Assembly: GCA_907163375.1 (NCBI GenBank)
Contig: CAJQUW010003011.1
Location: 1 to 64,000, forward strand
DNA length: 64,000 nucleotides
Direction of reading: 5' to 3'
Origin: Prostheceraeus crozeri
Lineage: Eukaryota > Platyhelminthes > Polycladida > Euryleptidae
The number at the start of each line of letters is the position of its first letter. The first letter of the stretch is position 1. The position numbers and the translations under genes are program-made. A model generated the notes under the pieces. It searched no databases, was not told the origin of the DNA, and saw only the letters and a program-made list of their open reading frames with translations. Positions 26,556 to 57,415 of this stretch are shown one piece after another.

Positions 26556-26696
26556 CCGAGAACGAACCATCGGCTCTCTTAAGGGCCACTAGGGGCAAGA
26601 CATGATAGAACCTCCACGCGGTTTGCCCTGGGCAGTCTTCGGACTGGCGAATACTATCATTAAGTTGAATCTGCTATCAGTCAACTTGAACGTTGC
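26556..26696 (+). repeat. 3' module copy 1: histone-like stem-loop plus two hairpins
   Basis: A roughly 141-bp segment occurs three times in V1, each time after a gene. It holds a histone-type stem-loop (26573-26588), the UUCG-type hairpin CAGTCTTCGGACTG (26634-26647) and a hairpin with 7-bp arms AAGTTGA/TCAACTT around CTGCTATCAG. A TATA box for the next gene follows 16 bp later. Confidence 0.8.
26573..26588 (+). terminator. Histone-mRNA-like 3' stem-loop, zinc/coiled-coil gene of V1
   Basis: GGCTCTCTTAAGGGCC forms a 6-bp stem (one G-U pair) with a 4-nt loop, preceded by AACCATC and followed by ACTA. It lies 57 nt after the stop codon in the spliced message. Compared with the histone consensus only the first loop base differs. 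Confidence 0.6.
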
Positions 26697-26711
26697 GTCG
26701 AGTTAGAGGGG

Positions 26712-26719
26712 TATATAAA
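26712..26719 (+). promoter_or_regulatory. TATA box of the 88-aa gene
   Basis: TATATAAA, 32 bp before the ATG at 26751, giving a very short leader as in histone genes. Confidence 0.7.
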
Positions 26720-26750
26720 CCACTGCCTCTCATTTCATTTCATTTCAATC

Positions 26751-27017
26751 ATGCAGACGCCGAACAGTCAAGTCAGCTCTCCTCGCGGACAGCAGTTAAG
26801 GCCGCGAAATTTATTTGAGGAGTTTGCCAGGCTAGAGGAGCAAGACAGAGTTTTTAATAATCTTGCTCGGATTGGCAATCCGATGACAGCAACTGCTGTC
26901 AATCCAACGGAATGGCGCTACATTCCACTTTTTAGTCACGTGCCAATTAGCGTGGAAGTCGACAGTGCTACCAAAGAGAGAGTCAAAGACTCTCTCAGCA
27001 GAATTGGTAGGGTGTAA
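26751..27017 (+). CDS. 88-aa protein of V1, unknown function
   Basis: Compact gene: TATA box, ATG at 26751, stop at 27017 and a histone-like stem-loop starting 30 nt after the stop. The protein is soluble-looking with a charged middle (LFEEFARLEEQDRVFNNL) and proline-containing C-terminal half (YIPLFSHVPISVEVD). There is no cysteine cluster, signal peptide or membrane segment. I recognise no family; it is not a histone. V2 shows no counterpart in this position. Confidence 0.55.
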   Translation: MQTPNSQVSSPRGQQLRPRNLFEEFARLEEQDRVFNNLARIGNPMTATAVNPTEWRYIPLFSHVPISVEVDSATKERVKDSLSRIGRV

Positions 27018-27029
27018 GATGACGTTACT

Positions 27030-27170
27030 CCCGAGAATGAACCATCGGCTCTCTTAAGGGCCACCATGGGGCAAGACATGATAGAACCTCCTCGCGGTTT
27101 GCCCTGGGCAGTCTTCGGACTGGCGAATACTATCATTAAGTTGAATCTGCTATCAGTCAACTTGAACGTT
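27030..27170 (+). repeat. 3' module copy 2
   Basis: Near-identical to 26556-26696, including all three hairpins. It follows the 88-aa gene and is separated from the next TATA box by 65 bp. Confidence 0.85.
27047..27062 (+). terminator. Histone-mRNA-like 3' stem-loop, 88-aa gene
   Basis: GGCTCTCTTAAGGGCC followed directly by ACCA, as after many histone stem-loops, then GGGGCAAGACATG, a purine-rich stretch at the place of the histone downstream element. It begins 30 nt after the stop; there is no AATAAA before it. Confidence 0.65.
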
Positions 27171-27235
27171 ATGCAGTCGATTGCTATCCCTGAAGCATTC
27201 TGATTCGCTGTTGAGCAATTCATTGTTGAAAACCC

Positions 27236-27243
27236 TATATAAG
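27236..27243 (+). promoter_or_regulatory. TATA box of the 73-aa gene
   Basis: TATATAAG, 41 bp before the ATG at 27284. Confidence 0.7.
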
Positions 27244-27283
27244 CCAGAAGATTGTAGCGCTTCTCATTCAATTTGAAGTCACG

Positions 27284-27505
27284 ATGGAAGCGACATCTGC
27301 CGACAACATTCCCGTCTTCACCGATGAAGACAACGCCATTCCCGAGTTCGTCATCCTCGACGAGTGGGATGAGGAGGATGAGAAGAAGGGGAAGATCAAG
27401 AGGATCGTTTGGACGGATGAGGTGTGGACTCCAAATACCACCCGCATCCGAAAGGTGCCAGATGCACCAGTACGACCTCGGCGGTATAGGTCTATGACAA
27501 CCTAA
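27284..27505 (+). CDS. 73-aa acidic-then-basic protein of V1, unknown function
   Basis: The N-terminal half is strongly acidic (FTDEDNAIPEFVILDEWDEE), with two hydrophobic-acidic patches that resemble activation or interaction motifs; the C-terminal part is basic (VRPRRYRSM). It has a TATA promoter and its stop is followed 63 nt later by a histone-like stem-loop. I recognise no family. A +1 frame over the same stretch is a shadow. Confidence 0.5.
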   Translation: MEATSADNIPVFTDEDNAIPEFVILDEWDEEDEKKGKIKRIVWTDEVWTPNTTRIRKVPDAPVRPRRYRSMTT

Positions 27506-27550
27506 CCGTCATACCCACTTGACTATTCCAGCCAATAGTCAAATTCACAC

Positions 27551-27692
27551 CCCGAGAACGAACCATCGGCTCTCTTAAGGGCCACCATGGGGCAAGACAT
27601 GATAGAACCTCCACGCGGTTTGCCTGGGCAGTCTTCGGACTGGCGAATACTATCATTAAGTTGAATCTGCTATCAGTCAACTTGAACGTTGC
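27551..27692 (+). repeat. 3' module copy 3
   Basis: Third copy, one C shorter in the GTTTGCC stretch. It follows the 73-aa gene. Confidence 0.85.
27568..27583 (+). terminator. Histone-mRNA-like 3' stem-loop, 73-aa gene
   Basis: Same 16-nt hairpin as at 27047, followed by ACCATGGGGCAAGAC. Confidence 0.65.
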
Positions 27693-27694
27693 AA

Positions 27695-27901
27695 ATGAAG
27701 TTCGGTGTAATACTTCCTTTCGACGGGCGTTCTGTAAAGGGCGGCGGTGAAACCCGTAGCTATGTATACCGCAAGGGACATTCGGCAATGGTCAATCTTG
27801 TTAAACCTCTCTGCGTCATGTTTGCAAGTGATTGCCTCTGTCTCAACGTAGTATGCATTCGCGCCAGGGCGACATTTAGCCAACTGTCGAAGGTTGCCTA
27901 A
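27695..27901 (+). CDS. Possible small ORF after the third 3' module
   Basis: A 68-codon frame begins 3 bp after the module (MKFGVILPFDGRSVKGGG). No TATA box precedes it and no stem-loop follows. It could be the remnant of a fourth gene whose promoter was lost. The minus-strand frame over the same bases is equally open, so this is weak. Confidence 0.2.
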   Translation: MKFGVILPFDGRSVKGGGETRSYVYRKGHSAMVNLVKPLCVMFASDCLCLNVVCIRARATFSQLSKVA

Positions 27902-28028
27902 AACTTTCCATTGCATACGTTATGAGAACCATGAGTTCTACCTGTCTCTATCAATGAGACGAATTGATGAATGGAATGAAATGGGAGGACACTCACGCGC
28001 CACACGCAACATAACACACTTCTCTCTT

Positions 28029-28645
28029 CCGTAGTCTAACAAGCTCTTTACACATGGATCGCAGTCGATTGCTATCCCTGTATCAGAAGTGTAAGCTATC
28101 TTAATTTTATTTGACACTATTTCATCTATCATCATCATCGTCCATATGAAATGTTTTAAGATTTACAAGTTAGACTAAGCGTGCTACTATTTCCAAATGA
28201 AAAAGTATACATGGTTAAATCATCCACTTAAGCCCATCCGTAGTCTAACAAGCTCTTTACACATGGATCGCAGTCGATTGCTATCCCTGTATCAGAAGTG
28301 TAAGCTATCTTAATTTATTTGACACTATTTCATCTACCATCATCGTCCATATGAAATGTTTTAAGATTTACAAGTTAGACTAAGCGTGCTACTATTTCCA
28401 AATGAAAAAAGTATACATGGTTAAATCATCCACTTAAGCCCATCCGTAGTCTAACAAGCTCTTTACACATGGATCGCAGTCGATTGCTATCCCTGTATCA
28501 GAAGTGTAAGCTATCTTAATTTTATTTGACACTATTTCATCTACCATCATCGTCCATATGAATGTTATAAGATTTACAAGTTAGACTAAGCGTGCTACTA
28601 TTTCCAAATGAAAATGTATACATGGTTAAATCATCCACTGAAGCC
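28029..28645. repeat. Tandem array, three units of about 206 bp
   Basis: Units start with CCGTAGTCTAACAAGCTC at 28029, 28238 and 28444. V2 has a single unit at 57556-57760. Each unit contains AGTCTAAC near its start and the complementary GTTAGACT about 120 bp later, so it can fold. V1 has amplified a sequence that is single in V2. Confidence 0.85.
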
Positions 28646-28696
28646 CCATTCAAGTAAGTCAGTATGAAAGCAAAGATAATACGAAATAAAAATTTA

Positions 28697-29093
28697 TTAT
28701 GGCATGTATTTCAAAAGGTCTTCATCGTCAATATCGTCCCAGAGTCTGGCTTCGCATAGATAACAAAAACAGTTCAGTTGCTTTAATCGTTCTTCCACTG
28801 CGAGCATCACTTTGTCAATATACTCCCACTCCTCCATAGTTCGTGGCTGGGAGTTAGGGGTGTACCACTCCCATAATTGGTGGAGGAATTTCGTGCTGGT
28901 GATCTCCATCACATCGTCAGTATCGTACTGGAGATACTTCCACCTCACGCCTGTTAAGTCGGGGACACTCCTTCTCACATACACTCTCTTCGTTGTCCGC
29001 TGGTAATAACACCTTCTCTACCTTCGTTGGAGCGTTTGGTGTTGAGGATGGAGAAGAGAATTTTGTGTTTGGTGTTGTCGGAGGGCTTGTCAT
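28697..29093 (-). pseudogene. V1 copy of the antisense 149-aa gene, one frameshift
   Basis: The sequence is nearly identical to the intact V2 gene (57809-58258) over VRWKYLQYDTDDVMEITS and the C-terminal LWDDIDDEDLLKYMP. Relative to V2 a G-run near 28960 has one extra base, which shifts the frame, and a short internal segment is deleted near 29005-29050. AATAAA on the minus strand overlaps its stop codon. Confidence 0.65.
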
Positions 29094-29190
29094 GTTGACT
29101 GTGAATAATAACTTTGAAATGTTTTCTAATTCTTAAGTATCAACAAGCAACCAATCAGAATGAACAGCCAATGAATGATGAACATGAAAG

Positions 29191-29198
29191 TATATATG
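29191..29198 (+). promoter_or_regulatory. TATA box of V1 PolB
   Basis: TATATATG, preceded by two CCAAT boxes (29150-29175), as in V2 (58316-58363). Confidence 0.6.
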
Positions 29199-29370
29199 TA
29201 AAGTGACATTCGTGTCATTTCACTCTGTCTTTGAGACACATAAGTGAACTGTTGTTTAGCGAATTCTGTTATTATTTGAGGCGTACAAGTGAATTCCAAA
29301 TTTGAGACGTATTATTTGAGTGAAGTCTCTATCTTGTTGAAGTATCAAGCTTAAACATAATTTCGTTGAA

Positions 29371-31725
29371 ATGGTAAGTTGAAAATTTCTTCACTCATCT
29401 CCCTCAAACGTGTGGCTAATAGCATCTTCCTCAATTTCAGGTATCAACTTCATCACCAACACCCTCCCTTCTCGAGGAAAGTTTAGAGCTGTTGAGTCAA
29501 GGTAGGTTGTAACAATACACTGAGACTTGAACAGAGATGAAAGAATGATTTCTCTTTCAGGTGATGTGAGTTCCAGCTCAGGACTCTCGCGACAAGGCGA
29601 CGAGTGGGAATGTGCCGACTGCGGATATATGTTTACAAGGAAGCACAGTCTCCTTCGACACATCAAACAACGTGTGTGTCAACGCAAAGCGGCGTCAATC
29701 TCCGGAGGTGACGTTGATTCTGACGATGACATCTCCTTTCCTTGCGATTTGTGCCCTCTTTCTTTTGATAGTCACTTTCAGCGATCTTCGCACAGACTTC
29801 AACACACGCATGCAAATGATCACTACACCAACGGTACCTCTACCATCTCCCTCATTAATGTTTCACATAATAATTTAGTACGCGACTACTGCTTGGAGTC
29901 CAGTACTCAAATAGTAGATTTTCCTGAGTGGCTCCTTCAAAATTCAAACATTATCGAAGCGCTCTTCAACAATTTAGACAATTTTAGAATGAAGGCGCTC
30001 ATCTACCTTAAACTAAAATATATTAAGATAGATTTTCAAACGGGTCAAGTGACGGAGAGAATACAGTTTCATGTTCCTTCCTCTTCCGCAACCGAAGTTG
30101 TAGACTGCGAGTCTTGGCTAAATTTTCACATTCAATGTTTAAAATCAAATGTAGATAAATTCAATCAACGCAACAGCGCTCTCATTTTTGATGGTGTGGA
30201 CTCAGCCATATTCAAAATTTCACTATTAGAAGGTCATGCAGATCGAGGTACATTTATACTACCAAAAACGTTGTATAATAAGAAAGCTGTCATCAATGTC
30301 GATTGTAAATCACAGTGTTTCAAATATGCAGTCCTATCCATCCTTCACTATAATGATATCAACGCGAATCGAAATCAGACAGTGGGAGGATGAACTAGAC
30401 TTTGAAGGTTGTGATAGTAACAACATGAAAATCAAAGATGTAGAAACGTTCGAAAAACATAATAAGATTAAAATTGTCGTTCACGTGTGGGAGAAGGGGT
30501 TGAAGGGTGCCCGCTATAATTCACGTTCAACTTGTTATGAACGTGTAGTCAACCTCTTATTAGTAAAACAAGATGATAGCGAGGAATGGCACTACTGTGG
30601 TATTCCAAAATCTCTCGCTTGTACACTCACTTGGGCACTCTAAAAAAGGTTGAACATTTTGTATGCGACCGCTGCATCCGCTCATTTTGGAGTAAAGATA
30701 AATTTGTAACTCACTATGAATGGTGCAAGCGAGGTAAATTACAAATGGAACGCATGCCCAAAGATAAAATATTTTCACATAGGGATAATGGTGACGAATT
30801 AAGTCCCCTGCGTGTCATTTACGCAGACATAGAATGCTACATTGATGATATCATCCACAAGCCAGCAGCCATATCCTGCTATGAAGTATGGCATGACCAC
30901 TTTAGGAATAGGGAAAACAAAATGCATACTTGGCAAGGTGAAGATTGCATTTCAAAATTTCTAGAATTTCTCGATAAAGCTGCTAAATTTCAACAATCAT
31001 ATGATTCCCAATTGCAGCGTAAGTCACTACATATGTCAGATGAAGACAAACAAAAATTTGAAAGTTGCACATCCTGTCCTAAATGTCATAAAACGTTTGA
31101 TGACAATAAAATTAAGAAAGTGCGTGATCATGATCACATCACTGGTAAATTTAGAAACGCACTCTGCTCCAAATGTAACTTTTCACTTAGGTTGAGACGT
31201 CGTGTACTACCCGTCATTTTTCCAAACTTTAAGGGCTATGACAGTCATATGCTCATAAAAGGAGGGTTGAGCCAGATGAAATCGTGGCAGTTTAATGTAA
31301 TAGCGCAAACGAGAGAAAAATTCATGGCAATGACAGCAAAAGTACCAGTAGATAAAACTAAAGAAAAATAAGACAGTCTTCTTCGAAATAAAATTTTTAG
31401 ATTCATTTCAATTCATGTCAGCGTCACTAGCTTCTCTCGTTCGTAATCTCAAGTTTCTTCCCCATAGTCAAACTTTGAAGAAACACTATCCAAACTTAAC
31501 GGATGAAATAATCACTCGCAAAGGAGTCTTTTCCTATGCGTATTTCAGCTCAATGTCTAAACTAAATGAAACAACCCTTCCTTCCATTGACAAATTCAAA
31601 AACGATTTGACGGGTGAAGATTGTCCAGTTAGAAGGACTATGAACATGCTCAAGAGGCATGGTTAAAATTTTAATTGTAAAACGTTGGCGATTATAAGAT
31701 CGCTTACTTAGAATTAGATGTCATT
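29371..31725 (+). pseudogene. V1 protein-primed-type DNA polymerase B, frameshifted and interrupted
   Basis: The exon pattern equals V2: exon 1 ends in ATG|GTAAGT (29371-29373), exon 2 is 29441-29501 and exon 3 starts at 29561. The protein begins with two C2H2-type zinc fingers (ECADCGYMFTRKHSLLRH and FPCDLCPLSFDSHF), then the exonuclease box VIYADIECY, an endonuclease-VII-like HDHITGKFRNALCSKC insert and FKGYDSHM. The frame shifts near 30390, 30600 and 31370 (an A-run one base longer than in V2) and decays after 31630. At 31726 the gene runs into G/T-only sequence; only about 50 bp of later PolB remains (33396-33447). The palm motifs are absent. Confidence 0.8.
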
Positions 31726-33320
31726 TTGCTGGGGGGTGTTTGGTGTTTGTTGGGTTGTTTTGGGGGGGGGGGGGGGGGGTTTTGGTGGGTTTGGGGTGGG
31801 GGGTGGGTTGGTTGGGGGGGTTGGGGTGGTGGTGGGGGGTGGGTGGGGGGTTTTGGTTGTTGGGGGGTGTGTTTGGGGGGTTGGTGGGGGGTGGGTGGGG
31901 GGGTGTGGTGTTGTGGTGTGGGTGGGTTTTGGGTGGTTGTGGGGGGGGGTTGTGGTTTGGGGGTGGTGGGGGTGTTGTGGTGTTGGTGTGTTGGGTTGTG
32001 TTGTGTTGGGGTTGTTGTTGTTGTGGGGTGGGGTGTGGTGTGTTGGGTTTTGTGGTGGGTGTTGGGTGGGGGGTGGGGGGTTGGTTGGGGGGTTTGGGTT
32101 TGGGGGTTGGGGTGGGGGGTGGGGGGGGGGGGGGGGTTTGGGGGGGGGGGGGGGGGTGGGGTGGGTGTTGGGGGGGGGTGGTGGTGGGGGGTGGGGGGGG
32201 GGGGGGGTTGTTGGGGGGGTTGGGGGGGTGGGGTGGGGGTGGGTGGGTGGGGGTGGGGGGGTGGGTGGGGGGGGGTTGGGGGGGGTGGGGGGGCGTGGGG
32301 TGTGTGGGGGGTGGGTGGTGGGGGGTGTGGGTGGTGTGTGGGTGGGGAGGGGGGGGGGTGGTGGGGTGGGTGGGGTGGTGGGGGGGGGGTGGGTGGGTGA
32401 GGGGGGGGTGGGTGGGGGTGGTGGTGTCGGTGGGGGTGTGGTGGTTGTTGGGGGGGGTGGTTGGTGGGTTGGGGTGTGGGGGGGGATGGGGTTGGTTTGG
32501 GGGTGGGGGGTGGTTGGGGGGGGTGGGTGTTTTGTGGGTGGGTGGAGGGGGGGGGGGGGGGGGGGGGGGGGGTGTGTGGTGGTGTGGGTGTGGGGGGTTG
32601 GGGGGGTGGGGGAGGGGGGGTGGGGGGTGGGGTGGGGGGATGTTGTGTGGAGGGGGGGGTGGTTTGTGGGGTCCCCGGGGGGGGGTTTTGTGGGGGGGTG
32701 TTGGGGGTGGGGGGGGTGGGGGGTGTGGTGGGGGGGTGGGGGGTTGGTGGTTGGGTGGGGGGAGGTGGGTGTTGTGGGGGGGGTGGGGGTGGGGGGGGGG
32801 GTTTGTGGGGGGTGGGGTGGGGGTGGGGGGGGTGGGTGTTGGTGGGGTTTGTGGGTGGGGGGGGGGGTGGTGTTTATTTGGGTGGGGAGGGGTGGATGGG
32901 TGGGGAGGGTGGAGGGGGGGGGGTGTTGTGGGATGGGTGGGGTGGTGGTTGTGGGTGTTGGGGGTTGTTGTGGGTGTGGGGGGGGTTGGGTGTGGGTGGT
33001 TGGGTGGTGTGTGTGAGTTGTGGGGTTGGGGTGGTTTGGGGTATGGGGTGGTAGGGGGTGTTTTGGTGTGGGTGGGGTGGGTTGGTGTTTTGTGGGGTGG
33101 TGTGTTGGGGGTGGTGGGGTGGTGTTTGGTGGGGTTGGGGGGTTTTATGGGGGGTGGGGTAGGTGTTGTTGGGGGAAGGGATGGTGGATGGGGATGGGGT
33201 GTGGGTGGTTGGTGGGATTGTGTAGATTGGTGGGGTGTTGGTGTGGTTGGGTGGTGGGTGGGGGGTGCTGGTGGGTGTGTTGTGGAAGTGAGTGCTTTGG
33301 TAGTTGGTGGAATGGATGTA
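31726..33320. other. G/T-only low-complexity block 1 (possible artefact)
   Basis: About 1.6 kb composed almost entirely of G and T, mostly G, with no fixed period and hardly any A or C. It replaces PolB sequence that in V2 is about 160 bp long. Long Gly/Val/Trp frames on the plus strand and Pro/His/Thr frames on the minus strand result from composition and are not genes. Confidence 0.85.
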
Positions 33321-33395
33321 TAAGAAAAAATGTACTTGTAATCAAAATTTAAAATTAGTAATAATTAATACTTACAAACCCGTATTTATTTTGTA

Positions 33396-33447
33396 AAGCA
33401 ATACGCGGTCTCACATTTGTAAATAAACATCATATAAAATCTGAAAC
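33396..33447 (+). pseudogene. PolB remnant between the two G/T blocks
   Basis: ACGCGGTCTCACATTTGTAA and the bases after it match V2 PolB at about 61109-61160 with small differences. This shows that the G/T blocks interrupt a former PolB gene. Confidence 0.75.
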
Positions 33448-34060
33448 ATGGGGGGGTGGGGTGGAGTGGGTCTGGGTGGGTGGGTGGGTTGGCTGTTGTG
33501 GTTTTTGGTGGTGGGTGGGGTGTGGTTGGATTGGCGTATGGGCGTGGGGTGGTGGGGCGGTGGGTGAGTGGCAATTGGTGTTTGGTGTGGGGGGGGAGTG
33601 TGTTGGTGGGTGGGGGTGATGGTGGTGGGGGTGGTGGTGTGTGGGTGGGGGGGGTGTTGGGGTGTTTGTGGTGGGTGGTGGGTGGGGGTGTGGGTGGTGT
33701 GGGTGTGGGTGGGTGGGGGGGGGGGGGGGTGGTGGGGTGGGTTTGGGGGGTGGTGGATGGTGTGTGTGTTGGTGGGTGTTTTGGTGGGGGGTTGTGGTGG
33801 TGGTGGGGGGTGGTGTGGGGGTGGGGGGTGGTTGTTGTCGTTGTGTTTGTTTGGGTGTGGTTGTGGTAGGGGTGTTGTTCGTGTGTGTGTATGGGTTGTG
33901 AGGTAGGGTTTGGTGGTCGTATTGTTTTGTTTGGAATTGTTGAATCTAGGTGTTTTGGGGTTTTTCTTATTTTTATCTTTATGTTTTTGAGTTTTTTTTT
34001 GGTTTTGATGATTTTTTGGGGGGGGGGGGGGTGTTTGGTTTTTGTTTGTTTTATTGTTAA
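33448..34060. other. G/T-only low-complexity block 2 (possible artefact)
   Basis: A second block of almost pure G/T, grading into T-rich sequence at about 33930-34020. Same character as block 1; no gene. Confidence 0.85.
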
Positions 34061-34126
34061 GACGGTCGCCCACGTCAACCTAGACGGTCGCCCACGTCAA
34101 CCTGGACGGTCGCCCAAGTCAACCAG
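34061..34126. repeat. 22-bp tandem repeat, three units, in V1 right terminus
   Basis: GACGGTCGCCCACGTCAACC repeats at 34061, 34083 and 34105. The complementary words GGGCGACCGCC occur once in the V2 left terminus (about 55028-55040), so this belongs to the terminal repeat. Confidence 0.8.
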
Positions 34127-34292
34127 GCGGTCGGACCAACTCACTCGAGTCTCACACTCTGTCGTTGCAGAGGGGGGGGGGAGTCAGCGAACATGTTGTG
34201 AACCAACCTGGCCGGCACACCACGACAGACCACAACCTCTGTCGTTCCAGGGGGGGGCGCGCTGTGTTTATTCTGGACCTTTTGTTACTACT
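34127..34292. repeat. V1 right terminus with inverted C-tract/hairpin modules
   Basis: Two modules CTCTGTCGTTGCAGAG / CTCTGTCGTTCCAG each followed by a G-run are inverted copies of the left-end modules. The end TTACTACT is the complement of the AGTAGTAA start at 21982 and 54899. Confidence 0.65.
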
Positions 34293-36034: not shown

Positions 36035-38743
36035 TCACTCGCCACTGAAAAGTATGGTTTTATTACATTTCATCCTTTTTGAAGACGTTCCCCTTAAAAC
36101 GATTCTCTGGTGGTGCAATCTGGCAGCTGTGTGCAGCCTTATTCTGAGGAAATACTTTGTTATTTCTCTTATTAAATGGGTAACATGATCATCAGAAAGA
36201 GAAATGTCGAAATCAAGAGCATGATCACATAGCTGTGGAAAGATATACTCTATCTTTGATTGGAAATGACTTAGGACAGCTGTTTGGATGCGAATATCTA
36301 GAAACCGTGTTGGTGGCAAAGTTTCCATCAGTTTGGGACTGGGCATTATGAATATAAAAGCCTTCTCTGTTGCCTTGATGACTTCAACGACTCCTTTGGA
36401 AGGAATGATTAAACCACCATTGTTCCTGCATCGCAAAAATTTTAATGATTCTCGATCTGGATAAGTTCGACTATCAGCTAGAAGTGCGTTGTGACATTTT
36501 TTGCAATCAATTTTCAAGTGGCGGACTACATACCCAGCTGTATAAACTAGACAGTTCATTTCAGTCAAGATCAGATAGTTCTTCACTTCTTTCAAGATTT
36601 CTTACAGCAATAAAAAATCTGGGTCATTCACAAAGGAATCATCGCTTCTTGACTTCAAATCAACAGGGCATCGAGAACAAGGCTCTAACTGCAACGTTTC
36701 AGTGCCATCTAAATTAATCGAATTCGAGTTTCTGGAATACGGAATATTGTTTTTGATAATAAGTGCTCTCAAACTAGCTCTGAACTGTTCTGTGTTGGGG
36801 TTAGTATTCCAACCCCCTCTTCTACGAATAAGACTGAAAAAATACTTCCAGATGATCTTGTGACAGTTTAAAAGTGAGCAAATATTTCATTTCTTGCGTT
36901 AGTAACAAATCGTAAGATAACTTCAAAACTGATGTGGCTGTAATTATCAACCCTAATGGACCCTGAGATTTCCGCCCATCCACTAAGGGTTTCATAGTCT
37001 TTTGTTCGTTGAAATTTTTCAGATAATTGCAAGCTTTGTTTAGGAATGGTTCCCAAAACTGACGATTTGAAATTGAAAGTGGAGCTTTATACCCTTTCAC
37101 GAGAGGATTTTTTGAGTTGAGTAGATCAAACAATCTATCTATGATTCTTATGAATCGAACAGTGCCTTCGGAGCCGGCGAATTGCGGCAGATGCATTTCA
37201 TCTCTGAGAAACTCAATTGCAGTAGCTACGGATGCTGAAAGGGTTTGCGCTGCTAAACTGACTTTCATTTTCACGTTTTGATAATTTATATGACGACCAC
37301 TAATTTTGTTAGCCAAGTATAAACTTTCTTCGGACTGAATTTTGTGCAATTCCACAATGTACCTCCATTCAATAGTTTCAAAGTCATTATTTTCAGTTTT
37401 GTACAACAAGATTTTCCGCTCGGCGATCAGATTGCGCATGAGTCTCAGCATGTGCGCAGCATCAAAAACGAAATAAATGACTCTTTCTAGATAAAGAGGA
37501 TGGGGAAAAAAGTTTGGAGTTCATCCAGTGACAAATTGCATCCTAAAAGTATCGCAGAATGGACATTTGCAGAAAGACCATCAGCCACAACTGCACGAAC
37601 GTCAACACCTGAATTAGCTACTCTACAAATAGACGACTTTATCAAATTTGCCTGTTGTTCTGCACTAATATGGTTTGTGAAAAAATATCCGATTGGAGCC
37701 TTCCACCGACCCTTCAGACCAACAAGCATAATGACAAGTGCCTGAGATGCCAATGTCTCTTTTAAAGGGCCCCCACCAAAATCAACAAGGCCTGAATACT
37801 CATGTTTTGACGAATTCCATGAGCATTCTCTTCTAATTGACATTTCATCTACCATTAATGAGCAATAACGAAAATCAGGATTACTATCGATCTATTTTTT
37901 GATAGCATCTATCACTTCAAAAAGAAAACCTGGCTCACAGTTTACGGATGAAGCATACCTTCTTAAAGATGATGGATGTGGTAAATGCAGTGTCGGTTTA
38001 AGGAATTCATATGCGGCAGGAGACAAAAAGTGCAGTGTCATAGCGAAATTCTTTATCTTGCTGTCGTAGCGTTCTCCACCTTTGCGACAATCTCTCATTC
38101 GAAACAAATGATGAAATAAAGACAATGATGTTCCACCAAACGCTTCTTGTAGCAGATTCTCGGCCGAGGATTCAATCAAATTCTTGTCTTTCAGTTGTTT
38201 AATCACAGTACTGAGATTCTCACATTTCTTTGCTCTTGCCTTTATTTTCCGTCGTAGGTTCCTGACAGAACGGCGAAGATGTTCAAGTCGACGAATTCTC
38301 GTTTTCTCTTTCGCCACACGCTTCGAAGTAGAACAGATATATAGTCCATGGTCATGAAGAACTGCTGCCCGGAGTCTTTTGAGTGTCATTCTTCGCCTAC
38401 GCACTCCTAGGCGATGTTTCACTATCGTTCGTCGTTTCACTTCTTTTGTAGTGATGAGATGTTTCGGAAATTTGAACAAAGATGGAACAGAGTTTTTCTT
38501 TAGTCGACGTCTGCAAAGATTTTCAGTGAAGTCGGTAGGAAGAAAATGATCACTACAAATCCTAGAATATTCTGTAGGTTTAAAGTTTTCTCTTCGCATA
38601 GCGGATTGCCATTTCTTCAGAAGAATACCATCTTTCAAAGGAAATTTGAAAAAAGTTACATCTTGATGTCCGTCGGTAGTTGATGTTCGACGTCGGACTT
38701 GTCGTCGGTTTGTGCAATTATATGCGGAACAGCTGACAACCAT
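36035..38743 (-). pseudogene. THAP/P-element-type transposase, copy 2, near full length but broken
   Basis: From 38743: THAP finger (VVSCSAYNCTNRR, KWQSAMRRENFKP, RICSDHFLP), a basic coiled-coil stretch, then the transposase core (YCSLMVDEMSIRRECSW region, LKGRWKAPIGYFFTNH, AHMLRLMRNL) and the C-terminal part ending near 36035. Breaks: in-frame TAG at 37894-37892, a shift at the T/C-run near 37500, a further break near 36822, and a stop upstream of 36595. The frames belong to one gene in order, and the copy differs clearly from the one at 34293-35603. Confidence 0.8.
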
Positions 38744-39233: not shown

Positions 39234-39477
39234 AAGTCACACCTAAATCTGCTACACGAATACAAGTGTGGAATATATACACGGAAATTAAATATTCAAT
39301 CATTCAAACCATACCTTGGATATACAACTAGACAATCTAGATGTGACGGTGTGACCTTCTTCTGAAAGCTTGGAAACCCACATTTGTTCAATATTTAACT
39401 GAAGAAGATCATCAGAATCGTGCTGAATGCTTTACGGCTATTCTTGAGAAGTATCAATCTCCACGGATGAGAAAGAA

Positions 39478-49047: not shown

Positions 49048-49872
49048 CCTCATCAATCGGGTCAATCAAAAGTAGAAGCCGCTTCGTCCACCCTCTCTCT
49101 CATCAATCCGGATGTGACTATCGAAACACACAACTTCAACATCACGCTTGTTGACAAGTTTGAACTCTTCTTAGATCGAATCTTACATGGATCTCTGACT
49201 GGTTCTCGAGTCGATTTGGTGCTGAGCTGTGTCGATAACTTTGAGGCGCGGATGACAATTAATGCAGCATGCAATGAACAGGATCAAGTGTGGCTAGAGT
49301 CCGGTGTTTCTGAAAATGCTGTCTCTGGACACATCCAGCACATGATACCTGGACTTACACCTTGCTTTGCCTGTGCTCCACCCCTTGTCGTCGCCACGGG
49401 GGCCGATGAAAGGAGTTTAAAGCGCGAAGGTGTCTGTGCTGCTTCTCTACCAACTACAATGGGAGTCGTTGCAGGATTGCTTGTGCAAGCGGCTCTGAAA
49501 TTGCTCCTTGGCTTTGGAAATGTCAGGCAATACGTAGGATATAATGCCTTGGAGGATTTTTTCCCTACTTTGGTGATGAAGCCAAATGCAGAATGTTCAG
49601 CTCCATTTTGTACAAAGAGACAAAAAGAAAAGGAAGGCCAACAACAAACAACTGTATTGGAGGAAGAGGAAGATGGAGAAATTGAGCATGAAGATGACTT
49701 TGGGATTGAGGTGGTTGGAGAAGGTGGAAGTGGGGGAGGTAGTGTTGAGGTTGCCGAAGGTGTCAGATTGGCATATACGGCACCTGTAAAAGATAAGGAA
49801 GAAGCTGAGCAGAAAAGTAGTGGAAGTGGATTGTCTCTGGAAGAACTAAGGAGGCAAATGGCTAACTTGTGA
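49048..49872 (+). CDS. UBA5: UBA5 last exon, copy B
   Basis: The protein is identical to copy A, with at least one silent difference (GGAGTC for GGAGTT near 49467). The same splice acceptor precedes it and the same AATAAA follows at 49959-49964. If real, at most one of the two exons can serve as the terminal exon of one UBA5 message unless each has its own upstream exons; none are visible. Confidence 0.85.
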
Positions 49873-50589
49873 GTCTTAATGACGATTTGTGTTGTTACGC
49901 TAGTATTATTTGATTATGTGGCCATGATCTGATCTTCCCATCGTTGTTAAAGGTACCAAATAAACTCGGTGACATGATGTGACTTTTTAATTTTCTGTAG
50001 GCCTATATGCTATTTAAGAAAATCCGGCGGAAGGTATCGTTTACCTTATGAGAAAGAACTGACTAGAAACCTTGTATTGTGGAATATTTTTGATGTCACA
50101 TTTTTTTAGTGTGCTAGCTATAACTAAGCAGAGACTGGTTGATAACCACGTGAATTCAAAGTTGCACCAATGTCTGTTTGCGCATTTAGACTTCATTGGC
50201 CCTTTTCTTTTCGTGAAATAACTGTTAAATGGCAAAAAGAAAATGATTTTTGACACTCAAATAAGACCGCTTCAATAGATAAATAGGGAAAACAGCAGAT
50301 TTTACACATTCTGTATGCAGTTTATTTTTATGATTCTGTTAGTGCAGTTTCATTTCAATGAGGTCATCAGACACCAATAACATGAAAGTCGGCCTAAAAA
50401 GTGCAGTAGACCTTGAAAATGATGAGAAGGAAATTGTTTTTCTCGGATGAATGTGCAGTTTATGCTGCATCAACAGACAAGAATGTGGTCTAATGAAAGT
50501 CCTCACTTTGGGAACATGCGCATCAACATCCCCAGCGTTAGGGTGTGGGCAGCGATGTCTCAGGAGTATTTAACGGTTAATGGATGTTT

Positions 50590-50784
50590 GGGGTGTGTTT
50601 GCACCCCAAGGACATTTTAAGGGAATCAAACTTTTTTTTACTTAGCCCAATTTAGTTGTCAATACATGACTTTGTCACAAATATGATATATATTATATGG
50701 TGAAAAAAGATTGTTAGATACTTAACGTATATATGTGTACCAATAAATTCATAGTTAAGTACGTTTGGGGTGTGTACGCACCCC
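50590..50784. promoter_or_regulatory. Subterminal near-palindromes of PB2 (left pair)
   Basis: GGGGTGTGTTTGCACCCC (50590-50607) and GGGGTGTGTACGCACCCC (50767-50784). A third, GGGGTGTGTAAACACCCC, lies at 52766-52783 near the right end. Arms are constant while the centre varies, as for a dimeric protein's binding site. Confidence 0.6.
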
Positions 50785-51101
50785 ACGATGAATTGCATGT
50801 ATTATCGAAAAAATATACACGAAGTTGGATTTAAATGTCATAATACATGTTTATGGACACATAAATCAACTAGCTTATATAAGCAACTATTTTGAATTTG
50901 TGTTTACGGTATTCTTGTTCATATTTATTTACTTAGTGATTTAAAGGCGCGATGATCAAGGTTGGAATAACAAATATTCTCCTCTCATTGTTTTCAATTC
51001 TACGTAAGGCGTTGTTCTTGTGTTGATGAAGAGGGCTCAGACCAGCTTCCAGGAAAGAGTCTCTTCTAGTTCTTCTTGATGAAGTCCTGGACATAACAGT
51101 T

Positions 51102-52414
51102 ATGTATACCAACAAAGAAGGTAGGCGTCGACTTCGTGAAAACTGGAAACTAACATTTCGTGATGAAATGGAATGTTATATTGGACTACATATATTGTCA
51201 GGAGTACTAAAAGCTCATCATCGTGCTCTTCGAGAACTTTGGTGTGAGAGAGACGGAATTCCATTGTTCAGAGCATCGATGATTTACGAGAGATTCTCTC
51301 AGCTTCGAACGATGCTCCGATTCGACGATAAGATGCGACGTGATACTTCTGACAAACTTTCTCCCATACGACATGTGATTGACATCTTCAACAGAAAACT
51401 AAAAGACATCTATCAACCAGGTCCGTTTTTAGTGATAGATGAGATGCTGATAGAATACCATGGAAGAGTTTCATTTAGACAATATTTGCCCTCAAAACCT
51501 GGTAAATTTGGCATAAAAGTTTTTTGGATCGTTGATAATGACAATAGTATGCCATTACAGTGCCTTTTTTACATCGGTGGAGGCTCCTTGAATCAAGATG
51601 AACTGAACGAGCACAAAACAGCTGCAAATGCATATGTCATGCGTTTGGTCAATTCTTATGTCGGAAAAGGTAGAAACCTCACTGTTGACAATTATTTCAT
51701 GTCAGAATATCTCTGTGAAAAACTTTCTTCACAAGCCACCACTATCGTTGGAACCATGCGACGAAACAAAAGAGAAATCATTGATCACGCGAAGAGTATA
51801 TCTGGAAGGACTCGAGGTGATACAATTCATTATTAGTGGTAACATGACATTATGCTCATTCTTCGACAAGTCGAACAAACCTGTGCTTCTCCTGTCTTCC
51901 GATGCACGGAAGAGTGAGAAATACGACTCATGAAGATGGAAAACCGGAAATGGTAAAGTTCTATAATGAAACAAAGAGCGGTGTAGATAATCTCGACAAA
52001 ATGGTTCGTGGTTATTCGTCGAAGCGAAAGACAAGAAGATGGCCATCAGCAGTTTTTTTCACAATGATTGATGTATCTGTTATAGCAGCCAGGTTGATGA
52101 TGAATGAACAAAATGATCTTGACGAAGAACATTACGAATTCAAGCGAGAATTAGCTTATGAGTTGTGCAAACCTTTGATTAACCGACGTCAAATGCAGCC
52201 AATTACTAGAAAGGCAATCAAGGAAGCAATCAAGCAATGTGGTTTGTGGAATGTCGAAGATCGCATCGAAAATGTGGGAAGACCTACGGCTATACAGGGA
52301 CGTTGCACAAATTGTCCCAGGAAAAGTGACAAAAAGGTTCGCTCAAAATGTTCAAATTGTGGAAATTTTGTTTGTCCATCTCATTCCACTCTTTCTTGTT
52401 CTAACTGTGTTTGA
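51102..52414 (+). pseudogene. piggyBac transposase (PB2), full catalytic core but two frameshifts
   Basis: Readable blocks: MECYIGLHILSGVLK, IPLFRASMIYERF, FLVIDEMLIEYHGR (first Asp), KFGIKVFWIVDND, LTVDNYFMSEYL (second Asp), KPEMVKFYNET, SGVDNLDKMVRGYS (third Asp) and a C-terminal cysteine-rich domain (CTNCPRK, CSNCGNFVCPSH, CSNCV). The frame shifts near 51820 and near 51915, so the third Asp is in another frame. The frame upstream of 51102 is open for about 28 codons without an ATG, so the N-terminus may lie in an unseen exon or be lost. Confidence 0.85.
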
Positions 52415-54057
52415 ATTATCAAATATCTTGGTAAAGTGGGCGGAGACGTGTGTGTGTGTGTTCGTTGTTAAGCTGGAATAAACATTTTTATTACCATTTA
52501 TTGTACTTTTTAATGACTCTGAAACATAAGCTTAGGCCTAATGTTCATCAGGAAAGATTTTTTCTCCACTAACTCAAAACTTCTTAGAAATATAAATATT
52601 TTTATGTAATGTATAGCCACAAATATGATAGGTTAATTACTAAAAAGATAATATAAAATGATCTAAATATGTTGTAAATGGATATATTACAGATACAATA
52701 TGAATAGATAGCCATAGAATATTTTTGTCTATATTAAATAACTAAAATCTAATATATATTGGCATGGGGTGTGTAAACACCCCAAACGTACTTAACACAT
52801 AAAAATTTGAACATCCATTAACCGTTAATTGATCCATATTTTATTGAAGGTAGTATGAACTGTAATCAATATCTCCAAATCCTGGATAGTGAGCTCATAC
52901 TAGATCTTGCGAGACGAGGCATTCGTGAAATCTCCCACTTCCAGTAAGATGTCGTCCCTTCTCACACTTCCCGAACAACTCGAGAACTTCTGAATACGCA
53001 CTTCGATGAGAGATGGATGGGTAAATTCGGTCCAGTCCCATGGCTAGCAAGAAGCCCTGACCTGACTTCTTCTGACAATGCCCTTAGGGGTATGATGAAA
53101 AGAAAATTTCACCATGATAGGCCGCTAACATCGAATGACATCGAAGTGACTGTCAGACAAGCTTTCGAATAAATTGATGCTGATAAAGAACTTCTCCGAA
53201 GAATCCACAATTGCACATTCCGAAGACTCTCTTTGTGCTTTGACATTAAGGGCCTGCAGGTAGATCCATATGATACTTGAGCTTTTGAATGATACTTTAG
53301 TAATTTTGATATTATAAATGTAACAATATTTGAAACGTGGTCACTTCTGGCACACCCTGTACATTTTATGGCTATTAATATCAAAAAATAAATAAAATCG
53401 TTTTTCAAAAAGGGCTCGATGTAAATTTGTGTAGTGGGTCTTAAATTATTAGCATGAATATTCTTGGCATCCTAGATAGATTAAAAAATATCCGCCCCCA
53501 ATTTTTGTAAATCTGCAGTACAATCGATATCGATCATTGAAGTATATATCGAATTTGAAAAATCAATGAAGTTGATTATCTCGAAAACGGCTCGATGAAA
53601 ATTTGTGTAATTGGTCTTGAAATGTTAGTATGAATATCCTTGACATCTAGCTAGATTGAAAAGTATCCGCCCCCAATTTTTTTTAAATCTGCAGTATAAT
53701 CGATATTGATTATTTTATAGTATCGATTTTGAAAAATCAATAAGTCGATTTTCTCGAAAATGGCTCAATGAAATATTTTTTGATTTTTTTAGTTCTACTT
53801 CTGTTCCTCTTCCTTCCATCATTAGACAAACAGATTTGACCCCCAATTTTTTCGACCTTTTTCGTCTCTCAGCACCACCGTGAGGCCCTTTTGAATTCAT
53901 TGAAAATCGACCAAATGTTCGATCGGTATTGAAACAAAGTAATGACCTTCTTCAAGTCAACAGAGTGCCGGATTATTGTGAAACCAGGCTTCTGAACCTA
54001 TTTCTTGTCGTCTAAGCAGCATGCCATCAATTTCCCGTCATTGAAAAGCTTGTAAGA

Positions 54058-54868
54058 TTGGAGAGTGAAAGTGGCCACATGAAAGAACATCTGAAGCTAA
54101 AGGGCCTTCTCATCACCATGGATCAATTTGTCATCCATTTGAAAGCTTTGCACGATTTTACGAGGACAACTCAATCATTGAACGGAAACGTGTATTATTT
54201 GCTTTTGATTTTGTTGGAACTGGTGTCGAAACTGCTTGTCCGCCTGGGACACAACATTCCTCTTTCAGCTAAAAGCTATTTCAAGAAGTTGTTCGAAGAC
54301 GGAAAATCTTCTTCAAGTTTTGTGTAAATCACGAGATTTCAGTTATTCGAAGAACGCTTCGTCGATTTACAAGGAGTTGTGTGAAACTGTTGAAGTGGAC
54401 TTGGAGCTGACTCAAAACAACTGGGCCGGGCATTATTGAACGAATGCATTATTCGAAGCGTACTGGTATTTTATCCTTCCCTGAAACAAGAAATTGTGCG
54501 AAAATGCTAAGTTCTATTCAAGCATGTCAGGACTTCAACGATGTAACGTCGCAAGGCTTAAAATGTTGTTGACGTCAGCTGACCTTGCAGACGAATACCC
54601 TCAACTTGCTATGAAACAGGATAGCAGCCTTACTGATCTGCACAAGAACGGTCAACTGTCCACGTTTCCTCTTTTGACCAGACTTGTTGAAAAAGTTATA
54701 GTTTTATGCCCACACAACATGATGGTTGAATCGGGCTTCACCAAGATGAAGTTTTTCGAAAGCGATCAACACTCGAACTTCAGTTTGGAAATGCACAACG
54801 CATTTCGTTTAGCATCCGATTTTTTTGACCGGGACATTTCGAGGATTTTGAACCTCCTTCATCCTTGA
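54058..54868 (+). pseudogene. hAT-like remnant (unit C)
   Basis: Third copy, with an A-run one base shorter near 54305 that shifts the first frame earlier than in units A and B. Confidence 0.4.
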
Positions 54869-54898
54869 TGGACAAAATCAAGCTGGCCAGTAAGGGAT

Positions 54899-55535
54899 AG
54901 TAGTAAGAAAACGGCGAACACTCGACCGGCGCCCCCCCCTCTGGAACGGCAGAAGGTCGTGGTCGGCCGCCGTGGTGCTTCGGGTCTGACTCCCCCCCCT
55001 CTGGAACGACAGAGAGTCGTGGTGGTCTTGGGCGACCGCCAGGTTTTGTCTTGAGGCTATAGTGTGTGATGTTTTTCGTGCAATCTGCTGAATGTTGGGC
55101 TGTAAAATGGGTTGTTTCGAGTGGAAGGAGTGCTCGGATGTGAAAACGGAGGCCAGATTCGGATTCAGCGTGAAATTCTGCATCGGTAGGGTGAGTTTCA
55201 AGTCAATCGGAGAGAAAAATTTTCGCTGACGTCCCCCCCCCTGACACCGACCTTCCAACTTTGCTTCTAGTGGACGGATTTTGTCGTGCAATAGCTCGTT
55301 TGAAAGCTAAGAGTGAGACAAATTCAGTGAAAGAAACGGCTTGTTCATATCTGTCTTCGTTCAAAAGTTAGAGCTGTTACAAGATTTTAGGTCGGAGCTC
55401 ACCTGAAAAAATCCTAAGTGTCAGAGTGACTTTGTATGGGTAAAATTTTGAAAATTTTCCAAAGTGTGGAATTTCGACCTGGGACCGTCACCAAAACATT
55501 TTTCATCAAATTTCACTGACCTCCCCCCCCTCTTA
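54899..55535. repeat. V2 left terminus
   Basis: C-tract plus CTCTG/CAGAG hairpin modules at 54930-55010, a GGGCGACCGCC word shared with the V1 right end, and one copy (55390-55535) of the core that V1 has amplified eightfold. Confidence 0.75.
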
Positions 55536-55555
55536 TCGATTGCATATTCACAGGG

Positions 55556-55562
55556 TATATAA
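55556..55562 (+). promoter_or_regulatory. TATA box of the V2 zinc/coiled-coil gene
   Basis: TATATAA, 49 bp upstream of the splice donor CTACAG|GTAAGT (55610/55611), the same spacing as in V1. Confidence 0.75.
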
Positions 55563-55610
55563 GAACGGGATCGGGAGAGGAATTTCACTAAGTTGAGAAA
55601 CTGACTACAG

Positions 55611-56233
55611 GTAAGTCGTTTCTCTTGAGGTCCGATATCGGACTTCTGACTTTACATTGCTGATATCAGCTAAGGTGTCAGACTTATAGGTTAGTCAGTA
55701 TAGCATGACTGACCATTTGATGATAGTAGGCCGAAATCTTCAAACGGCTATAACTTTGCTTCTACAAGTCCTTTAGACTTGATTCAAAAAACATTCGACA
55801 GCGTTTGCTATGCTGAAGGTGACAGACTACTTATAAACGTTTTATGAGTAGTACTAAAATACTGAAAAATTTAAATTCATATTTAATGATAATAATTAAA
55901 GTTTTTGAATAAAAAGCAGTCGTTTATGAGTCTCTGTGACTTGGGTCGTTTCCTCTTGTAAATAACTCCACCGGTTTTCATGTCAAAACTTGGGCCCGGA
56001 TACCAACACAGTGATATGACGCACGCTCTGTCCGATCGAGGTTGGATTTGTGGGTCGAGGCCTTGGAGCTGGGATAAGATCCCCTCTGAGTAATGCCTGT
56101 AACGGATTCAAGAGCTTAACACCCAAACGGTTGCTGACTTGCTATCAAATGTTTGGTCACTTAGTCTTTCAATGCATATCAGCAAGTAGTATCCTATAAA
56201 CACTTGCTATCAAATTTTACTCTATCGTTACAG
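55611..56233 (+). other. 5'-UTR intron of the V2 zinc/coiled-coil gene
   Basis: Donor CAG|GTAAGT, acceptor ATCGTTACAG, 623 bp. The start codon follows 7 bp after the acceptor. A GC-richer stretch around 55990-56110 may be structured, parallel to the V1 intron, but the pairing is less clear. Confidence 0.7.
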
Positions 56234-56240
56234 AATTATC

Positions 56241-57370
56241 ATGACAAAACCGAATAACGCAAAGATGTTGGTTGGCAAGTGTAGTTGTGGCAAGATTGCC
56301 AGAGGTAGTGAACTGAAGAAGCATTTAAAAGAAAAAGAGGGGACGATGGGCCATGAGAGGAAAGTGATGTTGAGGTTGTGTGTGTCTTGTCGGAAATCTG
56401 TGATGGGGGATGAGAAGGAATTTATGAAGGCGCATTTGCAGTGTGAGAGTGGGAACATCGGAGAGAAGGGGTTCAAGGCATGGTTTGAGGGAGAGTTGTT
56501 GGAAAGGGAAGAGGTGAGAAAGGCGGTGGCAACGATTCAGGACGTGATTGGGGAGAAAGTGGTGAGGAATGCGAGTGATGGGAGTTCGAGTGAGGAAGTT
56601 GAGTTGAGAGCGAAAATGAAGAAGAAGGATGATGTTGATTTGGATGCGGTGATGGAAGATTTGTTTGGGGATATAGCGGATTTGAAGGAAGAGTGGGATG
56701 GGGAGGAAGTGGCTAAGCCGATGGCAGCGTCATCGCCACGGCAGCAAGAGGCGTATGATACGGAGGTATTTGTGAGAATGAAGGATCGTGTGATGGCTTT
56801 GGAAAGTAATAATAGAAAAGTTTTGAAGGAGAATGAAGAGCTGATGGTGAAGGTTGAGGGGTATAGGGCAACGAGGGAAGAGTTGGAGAGCTTGAGAAAG
56901 AAGGAGAAGGAATGGATGGCGGAAAGGAGAGAGTTGATGAGGAAGGCAGGTTTGGTGGAGAGTTTGCAGGCGAGTGTGTCGAGGAAGGATGAAGAGATAG
57001 AGCGGATGCGAAGCGTGGTGAAGGAGACGGAGGAGGTGAAGGTTATTAATAAGAGGTTGACGGGTGAAGTGGAGCGACTGCATGAGCGTTTGAAGTGTCG
57101 AAAAAGGAGAGTATATGAGGTTCATCTTCCCCTCTTTGAGAATAACGTATGTGATGCCCCTACAATCTCCAGCGACTTAAATGAAACACAGTTGTGTTAT
57201 GAGGGGGATGGAGTTCGCTGCCTCCACATGAAGATGAACATCAATGGAGAGCTTGATGACTTCGTCGTCAGAAAAGTTAGAAAGAAGGTTCCCAGTAAGT
57301 CTATTCAACATAATCATTTTTGTAGCTCATCTAATCTCCTATTATTTTTCTTTCAGAGTGTTTGCAGTAG
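56241..57370 (+). CDS. Zinc-binding/coiled-coil protein of V2, spliced
   Basis: N-terminus with CSCGKI, a His-containing LKKHLKEKEGTMGHE, CVSC and KAHLQC: two probable zinc-binding clusters in about 60 residues. A long acidic/basic coiled-coil follows (EERELMRKAG-like heptads, KETEEVKVINKRLTGEVERL). The C-terminal block VYEVHLPLFENNV ... LCYEGDGVRCLHMKMN is shared with V1. The last coding exon ends at 57294 (CCCA|GTAAGT); after a 62-bp intron the reading continues at 57357 and stops at 57370. A histone-like stem-loop begins 30 nt after the stop. No family recognised; nuclear DNA- or RNA-binding is a guess. Confidence 0.75.
57295..57356 (+). other. Terminal mini-intron of the zinc/coiled-coil gene
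   Basis: GTAAGT ... TTTCTTTCAG, 62 bp, just before the stop codon. V1 has a 60-bp intron (26460-26519) at nearly the same place, a few bases after its stop. Confidence 0.65.
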
Positions 57371-57399
57371 TAGTGTCGGTGGACGGAGAACGACCCATG

Positions 57400-57415
57400 G
57401 GCTCTTTTAAGGGCC
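57400..57415 (+). terminator. Histone-mRNA-like 3' stem-loop of V2
   Basis: GGCTCTTTTAAGGGCC fits every position of the histone stem-loop consensus GGYYYUUHUHARRRCC and is followed by AACC. It differs from V1 only in the loop (TTTA for CTTA). No AATAAA lies between the stop codon and the hairpin. Confidence 0.7.

Follow-up and report, generated by a model that had tools for sequence, protein, structure and literature searches.

Probable histone-like mRNA 3' ends, made by self-cleaving ribozymes, in Polinton/Maverick-lineage elements of a flatworm

Genes that are followed by a hairpin of the histone type and by no polyadenylation signal raise the question of how their transcripts are cut when they belong to a virus-like element. 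Such genes lie in a 64,000-nucleotide (nt) stretch of the genome of the polyclad flatworm Prostheceraeus crozeri (contig CAJQUW010003011.1, positions 1 to 64,000; here called the window), which holds parts of two elements, V1 and V2. An earlier note on this DNA had described four 16-nt hairpins behind element genes and had relied on the U7 small nuclear ribonucleoprotein (snRNP) of the histone pathway for cleavage of the 3' ends. We confirmed the observation of the four hairpins and found the interpretation as a whole partly supported, the place at which U7 was supposed to act being occupied by self-cleaving ribozymes of two unrelated classes. Judging from the sequence, we consider it probable that the transcripts of these elements, which belong to the Polinton/Maverick polymerase lineage, cut themselves by means of interchangeable ribozymes and so acquire histone-like mRNA 3' ends without poly(A).

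Hairpins and ribozymes behind the element genes

The exact hairpin sequences were recovered on the plus strand at 26572 to 26587 (V1a; the start had been given as 26573, off by one), 27047 to 27062 (V1b), 27568 to 27583 (V1c), and 57400 to 57415 (V2). The three V1 copies are identical to one another over their 16 nt (GGCTCT-CTTA-AGGGCC, a 6-base-pair [bp] stem with a CTTA loop), and V2 (GGCTCT-TTTA-AGGGCC, likewise with a 6-bp stem) has a different loop; a GG..CC stem base, 6 bp, and a 4-nt loop, as in the histone 3' stem-loop, were found in V1 and V2 alike. As the earlier note had it, V2 fits GGYYYUUHUHARRRCC throughout and the V1 copies depart from it in the first base of the loop, which is U in V2 and C in V1. 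The C is off the general consensus, yet it is the base found in the H3 genes of the host (four of the four that have a hairpin; see below), so the apparent departure is the host's own form. Three of the hairpins begin 29 to 62 nt past a stop codon, close to the 30 to 63 nt formerly claimed for all of them: V1b is 29 nt past the stop of gene A (27015 to 27017), V1c is 62 nt past that of gene B (27503 to 27505), and V2 is about 29 nt past that of its gene X, at about 57368 to 57370 as read by eye across a putative intron. V1a lies 116 nt past the stop of V1 gene X (26453 to 26455), or about 56 nt if a putative intron (26460 to 26519) is discounted. Neither AATAAA nor ATTAAA occurs in 25265 to 28685 (V1) or in 55908 to 57797 (V2), in agreement with the reported lack of AATAAA ahead of the hairpins. 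When two mismatches were allowed, the window held 12 motif places against 9.15 expected, and 19 of 100 shuffles reached 12; such a loose count is no excess over chance, and the case rests on the exact hairpin forms.

Directly behind each hairpin, searches with lax Rfam thresholds recovered a ribozyme on the plus strand; at the curated cut-offs, Rfam gave no match anywhere in the window. The V1 hairpins are followed by hepatitis delta virus (HDV)-like ribozymes at 26592 to 26660 (V1a; RF02682, 26.8 bits; RF00094, 24.8 bits), 27068 to 27136 (V1b; RF00094, 27.5 bits; RF02682, 26.5 bits), and 27589 to 27656 (V1c; RF00094, 20.8 bits), the RF00094 matches starting at 26590, 27066, and 27588 and the RF02682 matches at 26592 and 27068. 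The V2 hairpin is followed by a type-P1 twister at 57419 to 57485 (RF03160, 41.3 bits, E = 4.9e-8). Over the whole window, the twister has an E of 1.2e-5 and the HDV matches listed have 0.71 to 6.9; since the latter are weak, the HDV case has to rest on more than Rfam. A manual check found the HDV helices in all three V1 copies (P1 of 7, P2 of 7, P3 of 4, and P4 of 5 bp) together with GCGAA as J4/2, where the catalytic C of HDV resides, and V1a and V1b have a G-U pair at the predicted cut, as does HDV itself. In V1c, the 3' strand of P1 is one base short, and a 7-bp P1 is regained only from 27590. In the V2 twister, 10 of 10 tested pairs form, and P1, P2, P4, and the conserved core are present. 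The purine-rich stretch that the earlier note had mentioned is the 5' strand of the ribozyme; as a candidate U7 site we rejected it, the stretch being the P1/P2 strand.

From these folds, cuts can be predicted. In V1a the transcript would be cut before 26592, 4 nt past the stem, so that the mRNA would end in the stem plus ACUA; in V1b the predicted cut falls before 27068 (stem plus ACCAU), and in V1c it falls 6 nt past the stem (stem plus ACCAUG). The V2 twister is predicted to cut between U57423 and A57424, 8 nt past the stem, leaving the stem plus AACCUUCU. Histone pre-mRNA is cut about 4 to 5 nt past the stem. A further conserved stem (TTAAGTTGAATC...) lies behind the V1 ribozymes on the plus strand (26660 to 26689, 27136 to 27165, and 27656 to 27685). 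Gene X, whose two V1 pieces are 36% and 33% identical in protein to V2 gene X, is terminated by the HDV-like class in V1 and by the twister in V2; this exchange suggests that selection acts on a cut at that place and on no particular ribozyme.

Linkage across the genome and the host histone signal

We searched the 2.05-Gb assembly that holds the window. The exact hairpin pattern occurs at 13,486 places, against 0.67 expected from base composition (39% GC assumed) and none for the backwards pattern, and at 11,440 of these an HDV P1 strand follows 2 to 8 nt behind the hairpin (reversed control, 0). The HDV core pattern has 14,129 places and the twister core pattern has 2,925, with none for either pattern read backwards. 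In the loci examined, the hairpin is in place for 96 of the 101 HDV copies counted when overlapping loci are not merged, one of the remaining five being cut off by the locus edge; counting distinct HDV copies with flanks, it is in place for 40 of 46. Many of these HDV loci had been picked by the hairpin, and the twister copies therefore provide the independent test. The 59 twister loci were reached by the ribozyme alone, although some were picked for variety from the core-pattern list and are hence no random sample; they yielded 60 usable copies, 47 of them distinct, and one more at a locus edge. With the same lenient stem detector applied to copies and shuffles, a stem that has 5 bp or more and stops 6 to 9 nt ahead of the cut was present in 41 of the 47, compared with 26% of dinucleotide-shuffled upstream sequences, and in 31 of 36 when only distinct upstream sequences were counted. 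On contig C67, a twister copy at 4000 is accompanied by HDV copies at 4607 and 5082, from which both classes probably occur within one element.

The helices also covary. The set used comprised 63 rows, including hairpin-chosen loci and the window copy, and left out four copies, three of them because no GAGG strand could be located and the fourth because it lay at the edge of its locus. Across 17 types, 159 of 170 cells in twister helices P1, P2, and P4 are paired, whereas shuffled partners give a mean of 125 and a maximum of 141; P2, for instance, occurs as UGCA/UGCA, UGAG/CUCA, UGUG/CACA, and UGUA/UACA. The hairpin stem has variants changed on both sides (GGCTCT/AGGGCC, GGCCTT/AAGGCC, AGTTCT/AGAACT, and AGCCCT/AGGGTT), and its loop reads TTTA, CTTA, TATA, or, once, TCTA.

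The hairpins resemble closely those of the host's own histone genes. A histone family search of the host genome gave 150 scored matches, and in the 40 whose 3' flanks were examined, a hairpin was found in six (four H3 and two H2B, as labeled from a reading of the coding ends), with none in the other 34 under the rules used. The four H3 genes (L226, L243, L244, and L245) all have GGCCCT-CTTA-AGGGCC-ACA; the H2B genes have GGTCCT-GTTG-AGGACC (L237) and GGCCCT-CCTA-AGGGCC (L262). The H3 hairpin is matched at 15 of 16 positions by V1, at 14 of 16 by V2, and at 16 of 16 by a twister-linked copy (L202). The earlier identification of the hairpins as 3' stem-loops of the histone type that terminate genes of viral elements is borne out. 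All six host hairpins are preceded by a box, GTGAACGC or GTGAAAGC. The viral forms of this box are GAGAACGA or GAGAATGA in V1 and V2 and GTGAACGC in another twister-linked copy (L179), whose 16 nt upstream of the hairpin are identical to those of H3 gene L226 at 14 of 16 positions. Since box and hairpin are found together in both host and elements, the arrangement was probably captured from a host histone 3' end; convergence may be the alternative. What the sequence shows, then, is the hairpin, the ribozyme folds, the spacing, association, and covariation of these parts, and the near-identity of the hairpins to those of the host histone genes.

The Rfam check proposed in the earlier note did list the window hairpins, at 15.3 to 18.1 bits with Histone3 (RF00032) and below its gathering cut-off of 34. 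Five of the six host histone hairpins fall below 34 as well (24.4 to 31.1 bits; L237 was not listed), as does viral hairpin L201 (28.3 bits), so the cut-off would have misled, and we rejected the low score as an argument against the hairpin. Behind the host histone hairpins, no ribozyme was listed in the stretches examined (less than 20 nt for L262). In the host, a single contig encodes two parts of the SLBP RNA-binding domain, which score 52.7 and 32.9 bits and span domain positions 34 to 69 and 1 to 37; the weaker has a stop codon inside the matched stretch. A search for U7 RNA gave 0 matches, and its control search likewise gave 0.

Two further sets of observations concern the host signal. 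Many of the H3 copies among L223 to L262 diverge, by eye, right after the GTGAACGC box, short of where the hairpin would be, as though they were retrocopies of histone mRNA lacking its stem-loop. A repeat family (L263, L265, and L268) has the host-type box with a histone-type hairpin (GGTCCT-CTTA-AGGGCC and variants), and no Rfam ribozyme was found behind the hairpin in the three copies inspected; the box-plus-hairpin pattern has 750 places in the genome. A second repeat (L264, L267, and L269, on contigs C46 and C420) has the hairpin with a CTTG or CTTC loop and, roughly 100 nt past it, TTGGCGACC, which resembles the primer-binding site of a long terminal repeat (LTR) retroelement. An LTR element may thus also use a histone-type 3' end.

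The elements and their genes

V1 gene X (25223 to 26455, plus strand, as are all genes in this paragraph) is read in two frames (25223 to 26095 and 26228 to 26455), and its putative intron at 26460 to 26519, placed by eye, would lie in the 3' untranslated region. Two small genes without Pfam matches follow: gene A (26751 to 27017; 88 amino acids [aa]) and gene B (27284 to 27505; 73 aa). Each has its own TATA box (26712 to 26719 and 27236 to 27243, respectively), so that both resemble small, self-contained transcription units with the hairpin-ribozyme module as their end. V2 gene X runs from 56241 to 57370 with a putative intron at 57295 to 57356, placed by eye (the unspliced frame extends to 57410), and is followed by a DNA polymerase gene of the Polinton type (58707 to 62540; 1277 aa) with a zinc finger and an endonuclease VII domain. 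The main V1 pieces of the polymerase are 64 to 79% identical to it. The earlier description of V1 and V2 as well diverged applies to gene X (33 to 36%) and fails for the stretch behind it, where matching six-frame pieces are 89 to 99% identical and two others 68 and 80%. A tandem repeat of about 206 bp lies behind the V1 genes (28028 to 28646; V2 counterpart stretch, 57434 to 58461), and the high identity of these stretches beside diverged genes suggests a recent exchange between V1 and V2.

Of 7,999 scored in a search with the V2 polymerase, 2,295 are relatives at E ≤ 0.001, and several of the 120 relatives listed combine PF03175 with endonuclease VII; PF03175 gave no score on the V2 polymerase protein of the window itself. 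The best reading of V1 and V2 is as elements of the Polinton/Maverick polymerase lineage. No integrase, capsid, or terminal inverted repeats of V1 or V2 were found among the window proteins scanned, the window covering only parts of the elements. A search for relatives of gene X returned one, from the source jgi. At the 3' end of the V2 polymerase gene, AATAAA occurs at 62825, 285 nt past the stop, and Rfam listed no hairpin or ribozyme there. The module therefore seems to belong to only some element genes, although AATAAA is frequent in the AT-rich stretch around this polymerase and the contrast is weak taken alone.

Elsewhere in the window, a long G/T-rich stretch (31765 to 33890), possibly an assembly artefact, breaks the V1 polymerase. 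A separate element of about 10 kb (8891 to 19144), bounded by inverted repeats (8891 to 9111 and 18925 to 19144), encodes an rve integrase (13462 to 14280), a RING protein (9197 to 9706), and an ATPase-like protein (11969 to 12604). Pieces of a P-element-like transposase with a THAP domain (minus strand) and a DDE_Tnp_1_7 (piggyBac-type) transposase lie at 36822 to 38743 and 51102 to 51836.

A proposed two-part 3'-end module and the alternatives to it

Under the mechanism that we propose, the elements would carry a 3'-end module of two parts. The first would resemble the host histone 3' signal, with a short GTGAACG-type box and a hairpin of 6 bp and a 4-nt loop that host SLBP should bind; the second would be an HDV-like or twister ribozyme that cuts the nascent transcript 4 to 8 nt past the stem, about where U7 snRNP and CPSF73 cleave histone pre-mRNA. 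The product would be a capped mRNA with a histone-type stem-loop end and a 2',3'-cyclic phosphate, lacking a poly(A) tail. The SLBP-bound hairpin would then be the end of the mRNA, translation would go through SLBP, and U7 snRNP, poly(A) signals, and perhaps S-phase control would be dispensed with. We infer cleavage, SLBP binding, absence of the tail, the route of translation, and S-phase timing from the sequence features described above. Dependence of translation and stability on SLBP is plausible, and the S-phase linkage of element genes that the earlier note had drawn loses certainty, since cleavage by a ribozyme would go ahead whatever the cell-cycle factors.

The end left by HDV cleavage is a 2',3'-cyclic phosphate that has been used elsewhere against lengthening or shortening of mRNA ends (PMC8253595), and trimming and uridylation are part of histone mRNA decay (PMC10388802); an end of this kind would be expected to resist both. 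We consider it as likely as not that the whole amounts to a natural 3'-end pathway beyond the known ones, in which a host histone signal was taken over and the U7-dependent cut was replaced by interchangeable ribozymes, giving SLBP-driven translation and a cyclic-phosphate end protected from the trimming and uridylation by which histone mRNA is destroyed as S phase closes.

Each part of the module is of a known kind, and the joined system matches no described kind that we found. It is like the histone 3' stem-loop in its 6-bp stem, 4-nt loop, place after the stop without a nearby AATAAA, predicted cut a few bases past the stem, and CTTA loop as in host H3, and it is unlike it in serving viral-element genes instead of histones and in having a ribozyme at the place of the U7 site. 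A CTTA loop also occurs in four H2B genes of Caenorhabditis elegans (PMC1924863). The V1 ribozymes share the P1 to P4 helices and the GCGAA strand with the HDV-like ribozymes (RF00094 and RF02682) of retrotransposons and other genomes, which have been described at the 5' ends of R2 and L1Tc, with Chilo iridescent virus among the carriers (PMC8256844), whereas here they follow a histone-type hairpin at the 3' ends of genes. The V2 ribozyme shares P1, P2, and P4, the GGUYCCAAGCCC core, and the U-A cut with type-P1 twisters (RF03160; PMC5408937) and differs in that a histone-type stem-loop is coupled to it where genes of a virus-like element end. The hairpin-directed mRNA 3' ends of Mimiviridae (PMC4402537) likewise involve hairpins at the transcript ends of a viral DNA element, but in that case cleavage at the hairpin falls to an encoded enzyme and the mRNAs receive poly(A), while here the transcript is predicted to cut itself behind an intact hairpin. 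Engineered mRNAs (PMC2728509 and PMC8253595) have been given tail-less or defined ends by a ribozyme, or a histone stem-loop end, but these are laboratory constructs in which ribozyme and stem-loop are treated as separate devices. In the open-licence literature searched, as far as its available text extends, we found no description of a self-cleaving ribozyme coupled in nature to a histone stem-loop, or of either in Polintons. A search for polymerase relatives in viral and genome contig collections gave pattern matches, none of them confirmed. The hairpin pattern matched two viral contigs, which we rejected as by eye coding-like unrelated sequence. The twister core was found in at least 120 viral-contig stretches; in the 80 inspected, 26 of 84 core places are twister-like by a loose rule and none has, by eye, an evident histone hairpin.

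Several findings weigh against the ribozyme-made ends proposed here. The HDV matches lie below the Rfam gathering scores (20.8 to 27.5 against 50 bits for RF00094; 26.5 to 26.8 against 44 for RF02682) and are weak window-wide, and the twister too lies below its own (41.3 against 67.2 bits) despite its E-values, a score reached by none of the 38 genome matches listed. Plain folding of the 3' module gave no extra stability over shuffles (z of -0.16 to -1.38), by a method blind to pseudoknots. The hairpin is missing from 6 of 46 distinct HDV copies and was missed in 6 of 47 distinct twister copies; in five of these the same hairpins are present, as judged by eye, but with mismatches, and the sixth (L184) has lost it. 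One twister lineage (L003, L007, and related copies) departs from the histone rule, its stem being 5 bp and its loop 5 nt long; the detector scores this hairpin as a 6-bp stem that includes a U-G pair, with 3 nt in the loop. Upstream of the hairpin, only 4 to 9 of 16 ungapped positions match between V1 and the H3 genes, so the shared box is short. In two repeat families that have the hairpin, no ribozyme was recognised. All comparisons stay within a single genome, and the counts are not independent, since most of the copies listed are almost the same.

Three other explanations have to be weighed. The first is that the modules are dead relics, active in an ancestor, whose thousands of copies are now decaying passengers. 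The broken-up V1 polymerase of the window, the split of V1 gene X over two frames, the base missing from P1 of V1c, and the existence of copies with broken hairpins all fit this account; yet divergent lineages keep their helices through two-sided changes, which goes beyond mere identity, and the P1 of V1c still forms 7 bp after a one-base slide. We regard it as unlikely, and it bears on present activity only, being compatible with the mechanism. The second is that the ribozymes serve other ends, such as insulating packed genes from read-through or releasing small RNAs, while stable ends are formed elsewhere and the hairpin only aids folding or blocks exonucleases. Consistent with it are the distances of about 125 and 174 nt that separate the preceding hairpin from the TATA box of gene A and gene B, respectively, the hairpin-less HDV copies, the one twister lineage with a non-histone hairpin, and the further stem behind every V1 ribozyme. 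Against these stand the identity of the hairpin to that of host H3 at 14 to 16 of 16 positions, in V1 including the loop, which would be needless for blocking exonucleases or aiding folding, and the presence of the same hairpin ahead of both ribozyme classes; we think this explanation quite improbable. The third, ordinary histone-type processing in which SLBP and U7 snRNP are brought in by the hairpin and the resemblance to a ribozyme is accidental or vestigial, can draw on the host's SLBP and on the two repeat families with box and hairpin but no Rfam ribozyme in five copies examined, where the hairpin alone may suffice, but it is very hard to credit in view of two unrelated ribozyme classes at the same place behind the hairpin, covarying twister helices, and the failure to recognise a U7 site (the search for U7 RNA having given 0, as did its control).

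All routes to animal mRNA 3' ends known to us, by polyadenylation or of the histone type, rely on a protein endonuclease. If cleavage by interchangeable ribozymes is the right reading, the transcripts of these elements would instead cut themselves near the histone cut site, in thousands of genomic copies, and two unrelated ribozyme classes would share one job at related genes. Self-cleaving ribozymes would thereby have a natural role at gene 3' ends, and the elements would offer a test bed for the function of SLBP without U7 and a natural precedent for the design of tail-less mRNA.

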